From a virus, in IMG/VR virus record IMGVR_UViG_3300044825_001160, positions 1-52,845 of that record: 52,845 nucleotides of DNA; one strand, written 5' to 3'. Each line of letters begins with the position of its first letter. Position 1 is the first letter of the stretch. Of this stretch, positions 4,220 through 34,053 are shown piece by piece. The notes below the pieces were generated by a model. That model did not search any database and was not told the DNA's origin. It saw nothing but the letters and a program-made list of their open reading frames with translations. The translations under genes were made by a program, and so were the position numbers.

Positions 4220-4242
4220 AAGTCGCGTAAGTGCTTGATTTA

Positions 4243-10928: not shown

Positions 10929-12448
10929 CAGTAATACGCCGCACGGCGAGAGCGTGATGATTTAAAATACTGTATGGGCTCAGGCTCGTCTGACGGCAGC
11001 GTGATAAAGCCCCCCTGACGGAACCGAAGAAGTGCGAGTGTGGTCGCATCGACCAAGTCATCGTTGCGCCCTGCGGGGAAGTCATTACACTCCTCCATTA
11101 CTTCTCTCGCCCATCGACGATCCGGTGCCCACACCATACCCGAACGGAAGAGATCCGTCACGGCATTCACCCGGCTGATCTTGTCCTGCCCCTTACCGGG
11201 GGTAAACTCGCTCATCGGCACGCCCATCCGCCGCATCTCCTGATAGAGCGCCGCCCCGTTGGACTTCTTCTCCACGATAAAGCTGTCCGGCTCCCACTCT
11301 TTATACTCATCCAACACCAACTGCTTCAGGTCCGGGAACTCCATCCGCTCCTTGACCGCATTCAACAGGATGATGTTGTAGGCGTTGGTCTCCTCGTTCA
11401 TAAACACCCCCCACGTCAGGAGGGCGTTGTAGTCGGCACGGTTGTTGGTCTCCTGTGCGGCGTCGAGGGACATGATGATGAACTCGCACTGGGGCGGTCG
11501 GTCCTTCTCCCAGACCTGCCACCACTCCCTCTTTATTAACGCCCCCTCCTCACTGGTCGGCTGCTGCATGTACTGGGCCTGCCAGTACCGGGGGTCCATG
11601 CCCGCCTTCTTTGCCATCAACTCGTCAATCGACCAGAAGTCAGGCCAGAGCGGCTTCTCATTCAGAATGGCAGGGAACTCCACCACCTCCCACTGATCGG
11701 CGTCATCATTCTTCGTCATGTGGTCGATGATCTGCCCCGTGAGGTCCAGCTTGGACCACCGAGTCATCACCACGATGATCGCGCCTCCCGGCATCAGTCG
11801 CTGGATCGGTCCTGATTGGAACCACTCCCATGCGGGGAGGAAGACATCGGGTCTTCCTTGTTTTGCTTCCTGTTCCGAGTGAGGGTCATCAATGATAAAA
11901 AGATCGGCACCGCGACCAGCGAGAGCGCCACCAACACCAATAGCAAAATACTCTCCATTAAAATTAGTCCCCCATCGCGAAGCAGATTTACTGTCTGCCT
12001 GAAGTTCGACTTGAGGAAATATTTCTTTGTAAGCATCGGCACCCACCAGATTTCGCACGCGACGACCGAATGACACCGCCAAATCGGCAGTGTGCGAGGC
12101 CATAATCACCTTCTTTTGCGGGTGATTACCCAAAAACCACGCTGGAGCGAGGTAGGAGATCATTTCTGACTTGCCGTGACGCGGGGCAATGTTGACAATT
12201 ACGCGCTTTTTGCGCCCGTTCGCCACATCTTCAAAGATTTTGGCAAGGCGACGGTGGTGTGGACCGACCTTGTACCCCGGGTAAACGTGCTGGATGAAGT
12301 CGAGAAACGAGGAACGACCTAATTTCTGGTTAACTTGCGTGTGATATTGCTTCAAAAGCTCTGCAACACGCCGTTTTTCCTTGTCTGGCAGCGTAGGAAG
12401 TGCTGTTTTCAGCTTTTGGATGTCTTGTGGCGTTAATTTAAGCTGCAT
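10928..12448 (-). CDS. terL: Terminase large subunit, 506 aa
   Basis: This is the DNA-packaging motor ATPase and nuclease. The ATPase domain has Walker A at residues 88-94 (APRHGKS) and Walker B with catalytic acid at about 183-190 (LFIIDDPH), followed by the coupling-type motif VVMTRW near 226-231. The C-terminal RNase H-like nuclease shows the first acidic residue in MSLDAAQE (D329) and the last in NDDLVDA (about 462-468). A length of 506 residues is normal. The gene overlaps TerS by 11 bases upstream and the small basic protein by one base downstream. All main motifs are intact, so packaging should be functional. Confidence 0.95.
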   Translation of the reverse strand: MQLKLTPQDIQKLKTALPTLPDKEKRRVAELLKQYHTQVNQKLGRSSFLDFIQHVYPGYKVGPHHRRLAKIFEDVANGRKKRVIVNIAPRHGKSEMISYLAPAWFLGNHPQKKVIMASHTADLAVSFGRRVRNLVGADAYKEIFPQVELQADSKSASRWGTNFNGEYFAIGVGGALAGRGADLFIIDDPHSEQEAKQGRPDVFLPAWEWFQSGPIQRLMPGGAIIVVMTRWSKLDLTGQIIDHMTKNDDADQWEVVEFPAILNEKPLWPDFWSIDELMAKKAGMDPRYWQAQYMQQPTSEEGALIKREWWQVWEKDRPPQCEFIIMSLDAAQETNNRADYNALLTWGVFMNEETNAYNIILLNAVKERMEFPDLKQLVLDEYKEWEPDSFIVEKKSNGAALYQEMRRMGVPMSEFTPGKGQDKISRVNAVTDLFRSGMVWAPDRRWAREVMEECNDFPAGRNDDLVDATTLALLRFRQGGFITLPSDEPEPIQYFKSSRSRRAAYY

Positions 12449-13306: not shown

Positions 13307-14020
13307 ATGACTAAGTCGAAAGTAGCAACGGCCATGGGCATCCGCACGATGCAGGACTGCGCCATCGCGGTAGATACCGCTGCCACGCTGGAAGGCAGCG
13401 CGATCGAGTACCTGAGGACCAAGGGTGTGCTCCCTCGCGGGAACGCGAAGGGTGAGACGGCAGAGGAATACACGTCCTACCTCACGGGCTTCGAGCCCGA
13501 CAAGGGGCTCGCGGACGAATTCCGTTCGCACCTCGGCGTGATCATGGCCACGCGCCGGGATCGCGAGCACGGGGAGCGCCGCTACGCTCGCACAAAGGAC
13601 GGAAAGGTCCGGCGTGCGACAGGCAAGGACAAGGACGAAGCCTGCTTTGTCTTGTCCGCTGTGGCCGCGTTCACGCGTGATCAAGAGACGATCACGGCGC
13701 TCCCCGGCTCGCGTGGTGACCTCACCACGGAGAAGGGTTTGTGGTGGGCCGAGCGTAAGACGGTGCAGGATGGCGTCGCACAGCGCTTCGGACGGCTGAA
13801 GAGTGCGGCGGGTGTCTTCATCGACGCCACGGGCAAGACAACGCGGGGCACTCGCGCATCGAACAAGAGCGTGGGTGAGATCCTCGCCGAGGCGCACGGT
13901 CGCGTAATCAAGCGCTGCCGCAGCGAAGGATGCGCACCATGGGAGGAGGTGCAGAAGGTACTCAAGGATGCCGAGCAGCGCATCGCAGCGCTGGTCGATG
14001 CACGCAAACTGGACGCGTGA
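13307..14020 (+). CDS. Unknown early protein, 237 aa
   Basis: This is the first gene of the early arm. The product starts MTKSKVATAMGIRTMQDCAI and is basic and largely helical, with Lys/Arg-rich stretches (ATRRDREHGERRYARTKDGK, RRATGKDKDE) and a later KTTRGTRASNKSVGEILAEA. The C-terminal helix (EEVQKVLKDAEQRIAALVDA) could dimerise. I do not recognise a family. Basic charge, first position and the palindrome just upstream make it a candidate DNA-binding regulator, but no HTH is clearly visible. The start has the leader GGAGATACAGTCATG, shared word for word with the gene at 15411. A terminator follows at once, so it forms a single-gene transcript. Confidence 0.75.
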   Translation: MTKSKVATAMGIRTMQDCAIAVDTAATLEGSAIEYLRTKGVLPRGNAKGETAEEYTSYLTGFEPDKGLADEFRSHLGVIMATRRDREHGERRYARTKDGKVRRATGKDKDEACFVLSAVAAFTRDQETITALPGSRGDLTTEKGLWWAERKTVQDGVAQRFGRLKSAAGVFIDATGKTTRGTRASNKSVGEILAEAHGRVIKRCRSEGCAPWEEVQKVLKDAEQRIAALVDARKLDA

Positions 14021-14282: not shown

Positions 14283-14289
14283 TCTCAAC

Positions 14290-14324
14290 GGGGTGGGGGC
14301 CACGCGGCTCCCGCCCCTTTTTTT
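14290..14324 (+). terminator. Rho-independent terminator
   Basis: GGGGTGGG (14290-14297) pairs with CCCGCCCC (14310-14317) through one G-U pair, with GCC/GGC pairing inside, and is followed by seven T. It ends the short leader transcript before the long non-coding stretch. Confidence 0.85.
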
Positions 14325-14336
14325 GGCCCTTTGAAA

Positions 14337-14473
14337 CCAGTTCCCAGCGCGAGCGCGCTCGCCCGCCACCACGCAGCCCACCGCGTACGCCTTGTCTAGC
14401 CCAGCCCACTAAGTAGCATTCTGACAGCGTGTCAGAACGGTGCCCATGATGCCAGTTCCTAGCGCGAGCGCGC
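14337..14473 (+). repeat. Direct repeat of a 22-base GC-rich module
   Basis: Copy 1 is at 14337-14358 and copy 2 at 14452-14473; each begins CCAGTTCC and continues AGCGCGAGCGCGC, with one difference (C/T). Each copy is followed by a palindrome of the GTTCTGACA family (80 bases and 43 bases between start points), so the module and the palindrome appear to have been duplicated together. Confidence 0.75.
14418..14438. repeat. Palindrome family, copy 2
   Basis: ATTCTGACA and TGTCAGAAC flank the centre GCG. It is preceded by TAGC and followed by GG. It differs from a perfect arm only at the first base. Confidence 0.85.
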
Positions 14474-14494
14474 CCAGCGTGGCCGCTAAATAGT

Positions 14495-14515
14495 GTTCTG
14501 ACAGCGTGTCAGAAC
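14495..14515. repeat. Palindrome family, copy 3
   Basis: GTTCTGACA and TGTCAGAAC form perfect 9-base arms around GCG. It is preceded by TAGT and followed by GA. It is the second palindrome in the duplicated module. Confidence 0.9.
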
Positions 14516-14556
14516 GAGATGGTTTAGAATATCGAGATTTTAGCTGGTCAGCTCAT

Positions 14557-14641
14557 TTAGTACGGTTAATCGCGTAAGTTTAACCTGTTCCGGACGCATT
14601 ACCTGACAAACAGGTGCGAGAAGTCGGTATGACCGTACTAA
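14557..14641. repeat. Inverted repeat enclosing a hairpin
   Basis: TTAGTACGGT (14557-14566) and ACCGTACTAA (14632-14641) form a perfect 10-bp outer stem. Inside, CGC and ACCTG pair with CAGGT and GCG around an ACAAA loop, with ATT bulged, near 14594-14618. The whole could fold as a small structured RNA or as a DNA cruciform. No known RNA family was recognised. Confidence 0.5.
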
Positions 14642-14699
14642 TTTAGATTTTGGTTAAAAAACGATCAATTTAGCAAAAACGTGGTACTTTTTGGCAAAA

Positions 14700-14758
14700 A
14701 TCCTGTTCCATTAGTAAAGCGCCGTTCCAGAAAATTAAGTGTACTTATGGAACAGGAT
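14700..14758. repeat. 12-bp inverted repeat
   Basis: ATCCTGTTCCAT (14700-14711) and ATGGAACAGGAT (14747-14758) are exact reverse complements separated by 35 bases. Each arm contains the GGAAC motif of the cluster. Confidence 0.7.
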
Positions 14759-14857
14759 TAAACTTAACTGTACTCTGCAAGTCGCTAAGTTATTGATTTT
14801 CACTTTGTTTCGGGGGTCAACTTTACTAATGAAAAGTGCCGCTTATACTATTTTCGA

Positions 14858-14999
14858 GTTTTGTTCCGTTGTTCCAGCGTTTTTAGAGGGGGGGAACCCC
14901 CGCGCATTTTCGCGAGGTCTTGGAACAAGACTGTACAAATGGCAGCAAGTGTGCAGGGGTCGTCCCCTCTCCAAAATCGCTGGAACAACGGAACAAAAC
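14858..14999. repeat. 142-base element bounded by 22-bp inverted repeats
   Basis: The 22 bases at 14858-14879, which begin GTTTTGTTCC, are exactly reverse-complementary to 14978-14999, which end GGAACAAAAC. The pairing continues inward with three mismatches to about 36 bp per arm. The loop contains a further small hairpin (GTCTT...AAGAC around 14918-14932). No target duplication is evident at the edges, so a mobile element is not supported. A large stem-loop at an origin or a transcribed structure are the alternatives. Confidence 0.65.
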
Positions 15000-15072
15000 A
15001 AAAAAATAAATATAACTTTATATCTTATATATATAGTTACATTTTTCTACTCTAACAAAATCAATCACTTAC
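15000..15072. other. AT-rich stretch (possible unwinding element)
   Basis: Positions 15000-15040 are nearly pure A/T with a TATATATATA core, unlike the GC-rich genes on both sides. A 16-base word starting AAAATCAATCACTTAC (15057-15072) recurs with one change at 15195-15210, and CCTGCCCAAATC is tandemly repeated near 15217-15240. It adjoins the GGAAC cluster. Confidence 0.45.
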
Positions 15073-15287
15073 AAGCCCCCTCATTTTTTCATTAACCCAG
15101 TTAGAGACAAACCCTGTTCCATAAGTCCAACTATTTTTCTGGAACGGCCGGAACGGCTGGAACAGCCCTTTACTAATTACCCTTAGTTTTCAATAAAATC
15201 AAACACTTACCTCTCCCCTGCCCAAATCCCTGCCCAAATCCCCCTAAATTCTCATTTTTTCGTTGTCTATCTTTCGTACCTAACCTC

Positions 15288-15318
15288 TTGCAATAAGTAC
15301 AGTATTGTGAGACAATAC
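15288..15318 (+). promoter_or_regulatory. Promoter overlapped by an operator-like palindrome
   Basis: TTGCAA (15288-15293) and GACAAT (15311-15316) are 17 bases apart; each matches the sigma-70 consensus at 4 of 6. The palindrome GTATTGT-GAG-ACAATAC (15302-15318) covers the spacer and the -10 box, the classic geometry of a repressor site that blocks polymerase. It would drive the GP88 operon starting at 15411. Confidence 0.55.
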
Positions 15319-15360
15319 GAAACATGGGGAAGCACCTAGTTACCGCTTCTCCTAGATAGC

Positions 15361-15381
15361 GTTCTGACACGGTGTCAGAAC
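15361..15381. repeat. Palindrome family, copy 4
   Basis: Perfect 10-base arms GTTCTGACAC and GTGTCAGAAC surround a single central base. It is preceded by TAGC and followed by GG. It starts 45 bases beyond the -10 box at 15311-15316 and ends 29 bases before the ATG at 15411. Confidence 0.95.
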
Positions 15382-15410
15382 GGAGTAATCATTCAGTAGG
15401 AGATACAGTC

Positions 15411-17399: not shown

Positions 17400-17441
17400 G
17401 GGAACCATGGCAGTTCGGTCTGGACTGCCAGTTGAGATAGC

Positions 17442-17462
17442 GTTCTGACACCGTGTCAGAAC
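17442..17462. repeat. Palindrome family, copy 5
   Basis: Perfect 10-base arms GTTCTGACAC and GTGTCAGAAC surround a single central base. It is preceded by TAGC and followed by GA. It begins 43 bases beyond the -10 box and ends 45 bases before the ATG at 17508. Confidence 0.95.
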
Positions 17463-17507
17463 GAGTGAGATCAAGTAACCAAGTTACACCACAAGTTGGA
17501 GATGATC

Positions 17508-30849: not shown

Positions 30850-31161
30850 ATGCCACGTCCGTATGGGGACAAACTACTGCGTAGCCTCCAGACAGCCGAG
30901 GAAGAAACCCTTGGTATCGAACTTGGTCGGGTGTGCGTGGCGGCGAATATACCTGCTGCCTACGTAGCGATTGCGCTGGAAGCCTCGCGAATGACGGTCT
31001 ACTCTTGGTTCCGTGGACAAGACATCCGCCGGAATCGACGCAAGATCGTCAGGACTCTTGTGGAACTCATGAAGCAAGACTTGGAGACCGGCATACTGCC
31101 CGCCAAGGATTACAACGCGGCGCGGCAATATATCGAGAGCCTAGCGGGAGTCAAAATCTAG
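30850..31161 (+). CDS. HTH DNA-binding protein, 103 aa
   Basis: The product starts MPRPYGDKLLRSLQTAEEET. Residues about 27-60 (VCVAANIPAAYVAIALEASR, then MTVYSWFRGQDIRRNRRK) form a convincing helix-turn-helix with recognition-helix residues MTVYSWFRG and a basic patch after it. It is the last gene before a strong terminator. It is the clearest stand-alone HTH repressor candidate and might bind the palindromes at 13199-17462 or 15302-15318; that is inference. Confidence 0.75.
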   Translation: MPRPYGDKLLRSLQTAEEETLGIELGRVCVAANIPAAYVAIALEASRMTVYSWFRGQDIRRNRRKIVRTLVELMKQDLETGILPAKDYNAARQYIESLAGVKI

Positions 31162-31218: not shown

Positions 31219-34053
31219 ATGAGAAAAGAATTTTATCAGAAAGTATTGCCAGCGCAGGGCGTCTATTGCGCCACCGGCATAGCAAACGGACGAGTCGCAA
31301 ACCGTTTTGCCGATACGCTAGAAGACCTCTTAGAGATAGTAGAGAGATTAGAACAGGATCAACTCAATGTATTCGTAGCCTTCAGTACGTTCCGAGACTC
31401 CAACAGAAAGGCTGACAACGCGGTCTTCACCCGATGCTTTGTCATAGACCTTGATGTGGGAACGGGGCCGAAGAAGTACGCGAGTAAGAACGAGGCGATT
31501 CTGGATCTCTTCCAATTCGTAGAGGGGCAGGGGCTGCCGCCTCCCGTGCTGATTGATTCAGGCACAGGGGTCCATGCCTATTGGCCCTTTGCGGAGGACG
31601 TGCCATCCGAGCGGTGGGTGCGCTGCGCTGAGCAGTTCAAGGCGTTCTGCCAACGGCATATCCGTATCGATCCTGCAGTGACGGCAGACCGGGCACGCAT
31701 CATGCGCGTACCGGGATCGTTGAACTACAAGACCGATCCACCCTCACCATCGAAGTTTCTGACAGACGAGTTCTGGCAGTATGACTTTGAACTGTTCCAA
31801 CAGTTTTTGGATGAGGTAGAGCCCAGTCAGGCATCCCACGTACTGGCAGGGGTGGTGCGTGGGTTGGACGAAGACACTGAAAGCGTTGCCAAGGTAGATC
31901 CGAATTTCGAGACGGTGTTTGCCATCATCGCCCAGAAGAGTCTGGACGACGAAGGTGGATGTGCGCAGATCAAATATATCTTGGAGAACGCAGCGACTTT
32001 ACCCGAGCCGTTGTGGCGCTCCGGTCTTTCCCTTGCCCGGGCATGTGTGGACTGGGAAGAAGCGATCCACGTCATGTCTGCCCCGTATCCAAACTACAGC
32101 CCAGAGGACACCCTCCGGAAGGCCAATGGAACAGTCAACAAAGACGGCAAATGCATGCCGCACAGTTGCGTTGTCCTCGACAACGAGAACCCCGGAATCT
32201 GTCACACCTGCCCCTACTGGGGAAAGATCACCAACCCCCTCGTCCTTGGGCGACAACTCAAAGCGCCAGAGAGGTCCACGGAGGTCGCAGTTCGGGAGAA
32301 CGAGGGTTCCGAAAAGGTTCCGGTCTACACCACCTACCCAACAGAACTAGAGCCATTTCGCCGGGGGGCGAACGGTGGGGTGTGGTATACGCCGCCGCCC
32401 AAGCGAGACAAAGACGGCGTCCTTGTTCCCCAGAAACCTATGCAGTTGTGGAAGCACGACATCTATCCCATCAAGCGGATGTATGGGGTACACGATGGGG
32501 AATGCCTGATGATGCGGCACATCATGCCGCATGATGACATCCGCGACTTCTTGTTGCCGATGGCGTCTGTCTATTCAGCAGACAAGTTCAAAGAGATCTT
32601 CACCCGGTATGGGGTGTTCTTTGATCCTGAATCCACACAGCTTATGGCGAAGTACGTCATCAAGTGGGGAGAGTACATGGTGAATCAGCAGGGGGCAGAA
32701 CAGACCCGCACACAGATGGGCTGGACTGCGGATGGACACGGGTTCGTCATAGGGAATACGGAGATCCAGCGTACCGGGAAGACCGCACGCACTGCCGCAT
32801 CACCACTTGTCCAAAGTATAGCCAAGCTGCTCCGCCCAGTAGGGGATTACGAGAAGTGGAAGGCAGCGGCAAGCCGTCTGAACGAGCCGTATTTCGAGAT
32901 GCATGCCTTTGCGCTGTTGTGTGGGTTCGGCTCTCCCCTCATGCCCTTCACATCTACCAAGGGCGTCAGCGTCTGCTACACGGGGGGATCAGGTAATGCC
33001 AAGACGGGTGCGCTGTATGCCGCGCTCAGTCTGTTTGGCGACCCTGTAGATCTCAGTCTGGCAGGGGGCAAGGAGAGTGCCACCGACAACGCCCTTGTGC
33101 AGTGGTACATGGGCCTGAAGAACATCATGATGGGGCTGGACGAGGCGTCGAATCGCAAGCCAGAGGAAGTATCGAACCTTATCTACAAGGTCTCGCAGGG
33201 CAAGGCCAAGCTCCGTATGCAGGCGTCAGTCAACGCCGTGCGGGAGATTGACCTCACCGCTGCCCTCATTACGTTCCTCACATCGAACCAACCTCTGATC
33301 GACAAGCTCACGCTGTTCAAAGGCAGCCCGGACGGGGAGCTAGCACGTCTGGTCGAGTTCATGATTGAACGGCCAAAGCCTTTGGTGGACAACGCTTCGC
33401 TTGGTAAAGAGATCTTTGACACCTTCCGGTTGAACTACGGGCATGCTGGTCCTGAGTACATCAAGCATCTGTTCGCTGTGGGTGACGACTACATAAGCGA
33501 CTTGATTAAGAAATGGGCTAACAGATTTAACAACTCGTTTGGCCTTGACACGACGTACCGATTCTACGAAAGCCTTGTGTCTGTTGCCTTTGCTGGCGGC
33601 GAGCTTGCAGCAGAGGCAGGGATCATCGACTTCGATCTCAACCGGATCTACGCCCATGTGATAGCTGGGATGATTGCAATCCGGGATGGTTCAGTCCGGA
33701 TCAACAAGGCGGACTATGAGACCGTGCTGGGTGAGTTCCAGAACCTGCATCAGAACAACACGCTGATCATTGACGATGGCCGTGTGCTACGTGAACCACG
33801 CGGGCCACTTGTAGCTAGGATGGAGATAGATACACGCATGTATTACGCATCCAAGCGTGAGATGCGAGCGTTCCTGTCAGAGGCACAGTACAGCGAGGCG
33901 GAGTTTACAAAGTACATGGAAGCACGCGGCGTCCTGACTTTTACCGGGAAGCAACGTCTTACTAAAGGCTGGTCCGGTATGAGCACCAACGCCCCGATAG
34001 CTGTCTATGGGTTCAAGAACGCTATACCGGAAGATTTCTTCAATGGAAGTTGA
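31219..34053 (+). CDS. Primase-helicase, 944 aa
   Basis: The N-terminal part shows an archaeo-eukaryotic-primase-like pattern: CFVIDLDVGTG (D77, D79), VLIDSGTGVHAYWPF and DRARIMRVPGSLNYK. A Cys/His-rich stretch (CMPHSCVV, GICHTCPYWG) about residue 310-340 may bind zinc. The C-terminal part is a helicase-like ATPase with a Walker A variant GGSGNAKT (589-596; Ala replaces the usual Gly before Lys), Walker B MMGLDEAS (D641, E642) and sensor LITFLTSNQ, resembling DUF927-type phage helicases. The ATG has no good ribosome site and follows a terminator by 13 bases, so its expression may rely on read-through. It primes and unwinds DNA for the polymerase. Confidence 0.85.
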   Translation: MRKEFYQKVLPAQGVYCATGIANGRVANRFADTLEDLLEIVERLEQDQLNVFVAFSTFRDSNRKADNAVFTRCFVIDLDVGTGPKKYASKNEAILDLFQFVEGQGLPPPVLIDSGTGVHAYWPFAEDVPSERWVRCAEQFKAFCQRHIRIDPAVTADRARIMRVPGSLNYKTDPPSPSKFLTDEFWQYDFELFQQFLDEVEPSQASHVLAGVVRGLDEDTESVAKVDPNFETVFAIIAQKSLDDEGGCAQIKYILENAATLPEPLWRSGLSLARACVDWEEAIHVMSAPYPNYSPEDTLRKANGTVNKDGKCMPHSCVVLDNENPGICHTCPYWGKITNPLVLGRQLKAPERSTEVAVRENEGSEKVPVYTTYPTELEPFRRGANGGVWYTPPPKRDKDGVLVPQKPMQLWKHDIYPIKRMYGVHDGECLMMRHIMPHDDIRDFLLPMASVYSADKFKEIFTRYGVFFDPESTQLMAKYVIKWGEYMVNQQGAEQTRTQMGWTADGHGFVIGNTEIQRTGKTARTAASPLVQSIAKLLRPVGDYEKWKAAASRLNEPYFEMHAFALLCGFGSPLMPFTSTKGVSVCYTGGSGNAKTGALYAALSLFGDPVDLSLAGGKESATDNALVQWYMGLKNIMMGLDEASNRKPEEVSNLIYKVSQGKAKLRMQASVNAVREIDLTAALITFLTSNQPLIDKLTLFKGSPDGELARLVEFMIERPKPLVDNASLGKEIFDTFRLNYGHAGPEYIKHLFAVGDDYISDLIKKWANRFNNSFGLDTTYRFYESLVSVAFAGGELAAEAGIIDFDLNRIYAHVIAGMIAIRDGSVRINKADYETVLGEFQNLHQNNTLIIDDGRVLREPRGPLVARMEIDTRMYYASKREMRAFLSEAQYSEAEFTKYMEARGVLTFTGKQRLTKGWSGMSTNAPIAVYGFKNAIPEDFFNGS

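Follow-up and report, generated by a model that had tools for sequence, protein, structure and literature searches.

In the SaPI Rep and Cch2 helicases the C-terminal domain is responsible for recognising the iteron origin, which in SaPI and SCCmec elements is located downstream of the helicase gene (PMC7581432). We analysed a region of a linear viral record (IMGVR_UViG_3300044825_001160, 52.8 kb, 55% G+C; its whole stretch of 52,845 nucleotides is called the window here). Very probably the region is a replication origin of the SaPI Rep/Cch kind, with GGAAC iterons that would be bound by a phage primase-helicase. As in the systems of SaPI Rep (8tch) and SCCmec Cch (5dgk), short-iteron clusters are arranged in two sets with an A/T-rich tract within, and the modelled initiator is an element-encoded AAA+ helicase of the DUF927 type with a C-terminal DNA-binding domain. 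Unlike in the SaPI/Cch systems, the phage initiator carries a fused PrimPol and its gene lies 16 kb from the origin, the iterons keep to a set layout in which two core pairs face each other and IHF-like boxes are included, and the origin would serve an entire phage of over 50 kb. No cluster was found downstream of the initiator gene (after 34053); the cluster lies about 16 kb upstream of the gene. Since the position directly downstream of the initiator is not occupied, we classify the locus as a variant that would work like the SaPI-type origins and not as a member.

Primase, helicase and presumed origin binding are combined in one protein also in the P4 alpha-type replicons (fused initiator, PMC7145576). 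A second cis iteron region like crr of P4 was not found in the 52.8-kb contig, which is possibly incomplete. The P4 iterons are short (GGTGAACAG), and the primase class and helicase family of P4 alpha differ from those of the initiator in the window. Initiators of the RepA/RepE/TrfA type are not helicases and use the host DnaB; unlike these iteron plasmids, the phage supplies its own helicase and primase. The phage locus shares with the plasmid origins the iterons and the A/T tract, and in some relatives the IHF and DnaA sites (PMC4980987). Two-orientation repeats, mostly with an A/T tract, also occur next to the primase gene, as presumed origins, in Gram-positive phages with a D5-type primase (TP-778L, bIL310, LincolnB and PI-Sepi-HH2), which carry other iterons (GGTAAC, GGTAACA, GGTAACAGA, ATAAGACA) and another helicase family. 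Such repeats directly after the D5-type primase genes of named Gram-positive phages were seen in L345 (3901-4145), L347 (3862-4098), L344 (3808-4064) and L346 (3718-4042) and are likely origins of the same general kind.

The left arm of the window encodes the terminase, portal and capsid genes on the minus strand. The early arm on the plus strand, from about 13.3 to 34.1 kb, encodes GP88, an AAA ATPase, a VWA protein, a family-A DNA polymerase, a PD-(D/E)XK nuclease, a SNF2-type helicase and the primase-helicase. Between the terminase side and the origin is a gene (13307-14020, plus strand) for which no family hits were obtained, and the inspected relatives have an apparently dissimilar gene at the equivalent position. 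None of the named phages in the collection is close, with terminase identities of about 53% or less. The comparison with the named terminase relatives DSL-LC04, 023Pt_psg01, HTVC027P and Pag-Yong1 was dropped because they are too distant; separate primases are annotated in the first three. A megablast of 12-18 kb against named phages and an Rfam search gave zero matches, and with the terminase as query no relative was found in bacterial genomes that would indicate a host. The features of the region and of the two genes discussed below are as follows.

14586-14591, minus strand: outlying iteron TGTTCC at the left edge
14699-14759: left iteron group with TGTTCC 14704-14709 (minus), CGTTCC 14723-14728 (minus) and GGAACA 14749-14754 (plus)
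14710-14719, minus strand: CTTTACTAAT decamer, copy 1
14786-14798, minus strand: box 2 AATCAATAACTTA, fitting the IHF consensus
14821-14830, plus strand: CTTTACTAAT decamer, copy 2
14862-14875, minus strand: left core iteron pair TGTTCCGTTGTTCC
14876-14980: core spacer between the facing iteron pairs, 111 bp between the inner iterons, also containing one GGAACA (14922-14927)
14982-14995, plus strand: right core iteron pair GGAACAACGGAACA
15000-15045: A/T tract, candidate DNA unwinding element
15059-15071, plus strand: box 2 AATCAATCACTTA
15115-15164: right iteron group with TGTTCC 15115-15120 (minus), and GGAACG 15141-15146, GGAACG 15150-15155 and GGAACA 15159-15164 (plus), the plus-strand iterons spaced in 9-bp steps
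15168-15177, plus strand: CTTTACTAAT decamer, copy 3
15197-15209, plus strand: box 2 AATCAAACACTTA, right edge of the unit
14849-14893 and 14964-15008: inverted repeat, arms of 45 nt, 87%
14721-14759 and 15110-15148: inverted repeat, arms of 39 nt, 87%
14710-14730 and 15157-15177: inverted repeat, arms of 21 nt, 90%
30850-31161, plus strand: HTH-like protein of 103 aa, directly upstream of the initiator gene
31219-34053, plus strand: putative initiator, primase-helicase of 944 aa, with PrimPol (1-198) and DUF927/AAA+ helicase (372-942)

The original prediction had noted about a dozen GGAAC motifs between 14586 and 15210, and we counted 13 GGAACA/GGAACG hexamers in both orientations. In 2000 dinucleotide shuffles the mean was 0.64 and the maximum 5, and elsewhere in the window a 625-base stretch contained at most 5. 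The heptamer TGGAACA occurred 7 times in the region against a shuffle mean of 0.09. When the 6-mers of the whole window were ranked by their use in two orientations, GGAACA was at the top with 5+5, and the runner-up had 3 in the rarer orientation. A second two-orientation cluster comparable to GGAACA was not found in the 52.8-kb contig, which may be incomplete. The three predicted decamers CTTTACTAAT are all inside the region and occur nowhere else even with one mismatch. Three copies of a word of this type were not rare in the shuffles when one mismatch was allowed (13/100), so it is the exactness and the single place of the copies that count.

The inverted repeats that had been predicted were found and are nested around one centre near 14930; the inner one consists of the facing iteron pairs together with the A-runs next to them. 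The predicted A/T stretch is also present, with three or four other bases between 15000 and 15040, and the 300-base windows of the region have the highest A/T content of the contig (60-64%, compared to a mean of 45%). The sole long open reading frame across the region (GTG start, 118 aa, 14739-15095) passes through iterons and arms. The boundaries were refined. The main cluster begins at about 14699, which leaves the copy at 14586 as an outlier, and the unit, including its last box, reaches to about 15209.

A further word, AATCAANNACTTA, termed box 2, has three of its four copies of the window in the region, at 14786, 15059 and 15197, where 0.02 copies are expected for the whole window. The fourth perfect box (4228-4240, minus strand) stands alone, with no iterons around it, in a short intergenic stretch next to the capsid gene. 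The IHF consensus is WATCAANNNNTTR. AATCAANNACTTA fits this consensus, and three of the five consensus sites of the window fall into the region, against about 0.04 expected, as in IHF-assisted origins, although these are predicted sites. Across 24 family loci, which are not independent of each other, 27 IHF-consensus boxes were counted compared to 1.6 expected. A DnaA box (TTWTNCACA, up to one mismatch) as in DnaA-dependent, oriC-like origins was not found in 14283-15410; exact DnaA boxes are present in the relatives L010, L102, L256, L292 and L219.

Relatives were gathered with the GP88 protein and TGGAACAACGGAACA as scan queries. Most of the contigs with a strong GGAAC cluster found in these scans were relatives, many with terminases that are 75-85% identical, and in those with both flanks the cluster sits between the terminase and the g314-AAA-VWA operon. 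This gap has the same arrangement in about 25 related phage contigs. An unsupervised 8-mer count over 17 relative regions ranked TGGAACAA first, present in 14 of the 17 and 339-fold enriched over a background of 101 kb. With < and > for iterons, i and I for box 2 and ~ for the A/T tract, the layout of the window is '< < <<>i <<>> >>~ I <>>>I', and that of most relatives is close to '<<> i << [103-133 bp] >> ~ I < >>>'. The order is an outward group, box 2, two facing iteron pairs, the A/T tract, box 2 and the second group. The pattern '< < >' of the left group is retained, and in most relatives the A/T tract is at the same place as at 15000-15045 in the window. The arrangement is thus kept at the same place, and the repeats, whose absence from close relatives would have spoken against an origin, were found there. 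In the contig L219/L211, which shares its palindromes and box 2 with the window, AGAACA replaces GGAACA.

The central inverted repeat was also considered as a conserved stem-loop and rejected. The spacer between the facing pairs is fairly constant in length (103-133 bp in the relatives) and unconserved in sequence, and it is self-complementary in some relatives only. The arms of a phage's own spacer match at 12.4 of 25 positions, compared to 10.4 +/- 2.5 for arms taken from different phages. The arms are therefore better read as inverted iteron pairs.

Two other repeated elements flank the region. The palindrome GTTCTGACA-3nt-TGTCAGAAC has four copies near early-gene starts (14416-14438, 14493-14515, 15360-15382 and 17441-17463). 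Many relatives have a different palindrome of their own in 2-11 copies, for example TCCTATCGnnnCGATAGGA in G003, GTTATACGnnnCGTATAAC in L299 and GCGTATTAnnTAATACGC in L240, and these family palindromes are probably phage-specific repressor operators or immunity groups. The oriented element GAWRCCAGTTCC is found at 14333-14345 and 14448-14460, just left of the origin, and in 1-7 copies in most relatives. Its core CCAGTT occurs 45 times on the plus strand and 3 times on the minus strand (13.5 kb, 27 loci), and one idea is that the element is a terminase (pac) site.

In a reverse test, contigs were chosen solely by primase-helicase homology in a profile search and the same gap was inspected. The GGAAC direct-repeat pattern was rare in them, and a two-orientation cluster of a different word was observed at the same place. 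The words and counts were GTGTCA (= TGACAC) in G027 (7/7), AGAACA in G037 (9/10) and G044 (4/7), GGAACC in G040 (6/6), TGCACA (= TGTGCA) in G031 (6/7), GTACAA (= TTGTAC) in G032 (4/6), GGAACATT, counted as AACATT, in G051 (8/4) and, weaker, GTAACAT, counted as ATGTTA, in G053 (6/2). The word of each contig was picked post hoc, which does not apply to the two-orientation use or the fixed layout. Box 2 and the A/T tract were placed alike in most of the inspected contigs; G029, where the cluster is sparse, also retains both. A clear cluster was not found in G035 and G026, both cut by contig ends. Clusters of other words thus stand on a conserved layout, in which the word itself is exchanged. Box 2 is constant while the iterons vary, as would fit if box 2 were bound by a host factor and the iterons by a phage factor.

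The original prediction had named the primase-helicase as the only obvious initiator, and the analysis of this protein agrees with that choice. DUF927 was recognised with 72.9 bits, and the match to the SCCmec Cch helicase 5dgk was weak at the sequence level (phmmer E 2.6e-4). An AlphaFold2 model was computed from a 46-sequence alignment (mean pLDDT 85, pTM 0.55); with this pTM the placement of the domains is uncertain. Residues 372-942 of the model align with Cch 5dgk (Z 31.9, rmsd 4.5, 487 residues), residues 372-937 with the SaPIBov1 replication initiator 8tch (Z 27.4, rmsd 6.2, 458 residues) and residues 1-198 with the PrimPol 6zp9 (Z 19.2). The C-terminal residues 833-933 show a winged-helix-like order of helices and strands. 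The protein thus models as a PrimPol fused to an initiator helicase of the SaPIBov1-Rep/Cch type with a C-terminal winged-helix-like domain.

A homologous primase-helicase with 31-46% identity is encoded by 9 of 20 contigs with a GGAAC cluster. Most of the contigs lacking it are shorter than 25 kb. The only long one among them, G018, breaks off within the polymerase gene and so does not reach that position. In unrelated phages, a scan for GGAAC triplets found two-orientation clusters beside primase-helicase genes in 6 of 10 usable loci (L242, L249, L251, L278, L279 and L297), and L168, L193 and L320 were added from a wider set. The neighbouring genes matched the Pfam families DUF927, D5_N, DUF5906, VapE-like or Prim-Pol, or the PHROG DNA primase. 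Of 50 matches in one orientation, 48 were coding repeats inside long open reading frames. Taken together, the conserved arrangement in the relatives, the unrelated clusters beside primase-helicases and the SaPIBov1-Rep/Cch-like model of the initiator support the reading as an iteron origin. The GC skew, which had been proposed as a check, has its extremes at 12140 (minimum) and 34254. It is compatible with a nearby origin but confounded, since both extremes coincide with changes of the coding strand.

Other functions were considered for the region. Its position directly upstream of the early operon would suit a control of early transcription, with the GGAAC motifs as repressor or activator operators for early or divergent units and the A/T tract as part of promoters, and the family does carry private palindromes on both sides that are probably repressor operators. 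These palindromes, however, sit near start codons and form a class of their own, and facing iteron groups around an A/T tract with about 115 bp between the inner pairs are not an operator layout. As the GGAAC clusters also adjoin primase-helicase genes in unrelated phages, we consider transcription control improbable. We give somewhat less credit still to a packaging site (cos or pac) read by the small terminase subunit. The terminase genes are adjacent and the oriented repeat GAWRCCAGTTCC is just left of the region in most relatives, but several independent contigs run through the region, which is therefore not a fixed genome end. The motif clusters of unrelated phages go with primase-helicases and not with terminases, and the terminase remains about 80% identical where the iterons differ. 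Loci for partition and copy control also contain iteron arrays and IHF sites. A partition or centromere-like site, or an incompatibility or copy-control element of a plasmid-like phage, is nevertheless hardly credible, because a scan of early-region proteins recognised no ParA/ParB or RepA_N-type gene and the layout includes an A/T tract and accompanies a primase-helicase.

A variant that is compatible with an origin assigns the reading of the iterons to a different phage protein, for instance the HTH protein (30850-31161), with the primase-helicase only being recruited. The HTH gene directly precedes the primase-helicase gene in 17 of the 18 phages compared, and a simple comparison of domain identities did not single out an initiator domain that follows the iteron class. 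On the other hand, the putative recognition helix of the HTH protein, SRMTVYSWFRG, is nearly constant across phages with different iterons, which makes it a less likely iteron reader, and the SaPI-type Reps read the iterons themselves. We regard this variant as rather unlikely. The HTH protein may instead be an alternative reader of box 2. Against the preferred reading of a SaPI-type origin bound by the primase-helicase count the distance of about 16 kb between origin and initiator gene and the lack of a clear covariation of initiator and iterons in the simple comparison of identities. Further points against it are the contigs G035 and G026 with no clear cluster and G029 with a sparse one, the DnaA box that some relatives have and the window lacks, and the nearby skew minimum that falls on a change of coding strand.

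For this preferred reading we infer the following course. The primase-helicase would contact the GGAAC iterons with the winged-helix-like domain at its C-terminus; probably two assemblies would form, one on each of the facing iteron pairs, with about 111 bp between them. The AATCAANNACTTA boxes would be occupied by a bending protein, for which the host IHF is the likeliest candidate and the phage HTH protein a less likely one. Initiator and bending protein together would open the A/T tract (15000-15045). The helicase part (AAA+) could then load and unwind the DNA, and the fused PrimPol part would prime the family-A DNA polymerase of the phage.

The exchange of the iteron word may point to a modular origin, a reading that we put forward tentatively, at somewhat less than even chances. 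The scaffold would consist of facing iteron pairs about 115 bp apart, the A/T tract and two constant boxes for a bending protein. On this fixed scaffold the iteron word would be exchanged repeatedly among close relatives, and the initiator specificity would shift without an obvious domain swap. Initiators from a number of further helicase families would share the GGAAC word. Perhaps the exchange serves the escape from cross-recognition by competing phages.

The analysis provides a defined origin of about 0.5 kb and a named candidate initiator for an environmental phage family that is known almost only from sequence. With about eight natural iteron words on one scaffold, the code by which initiators of the SaPI/Cch type read their iterons becomes testable by comparison. 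The rule of two-orientation clusters could locate origins and their initiators in other metagenomic phages.
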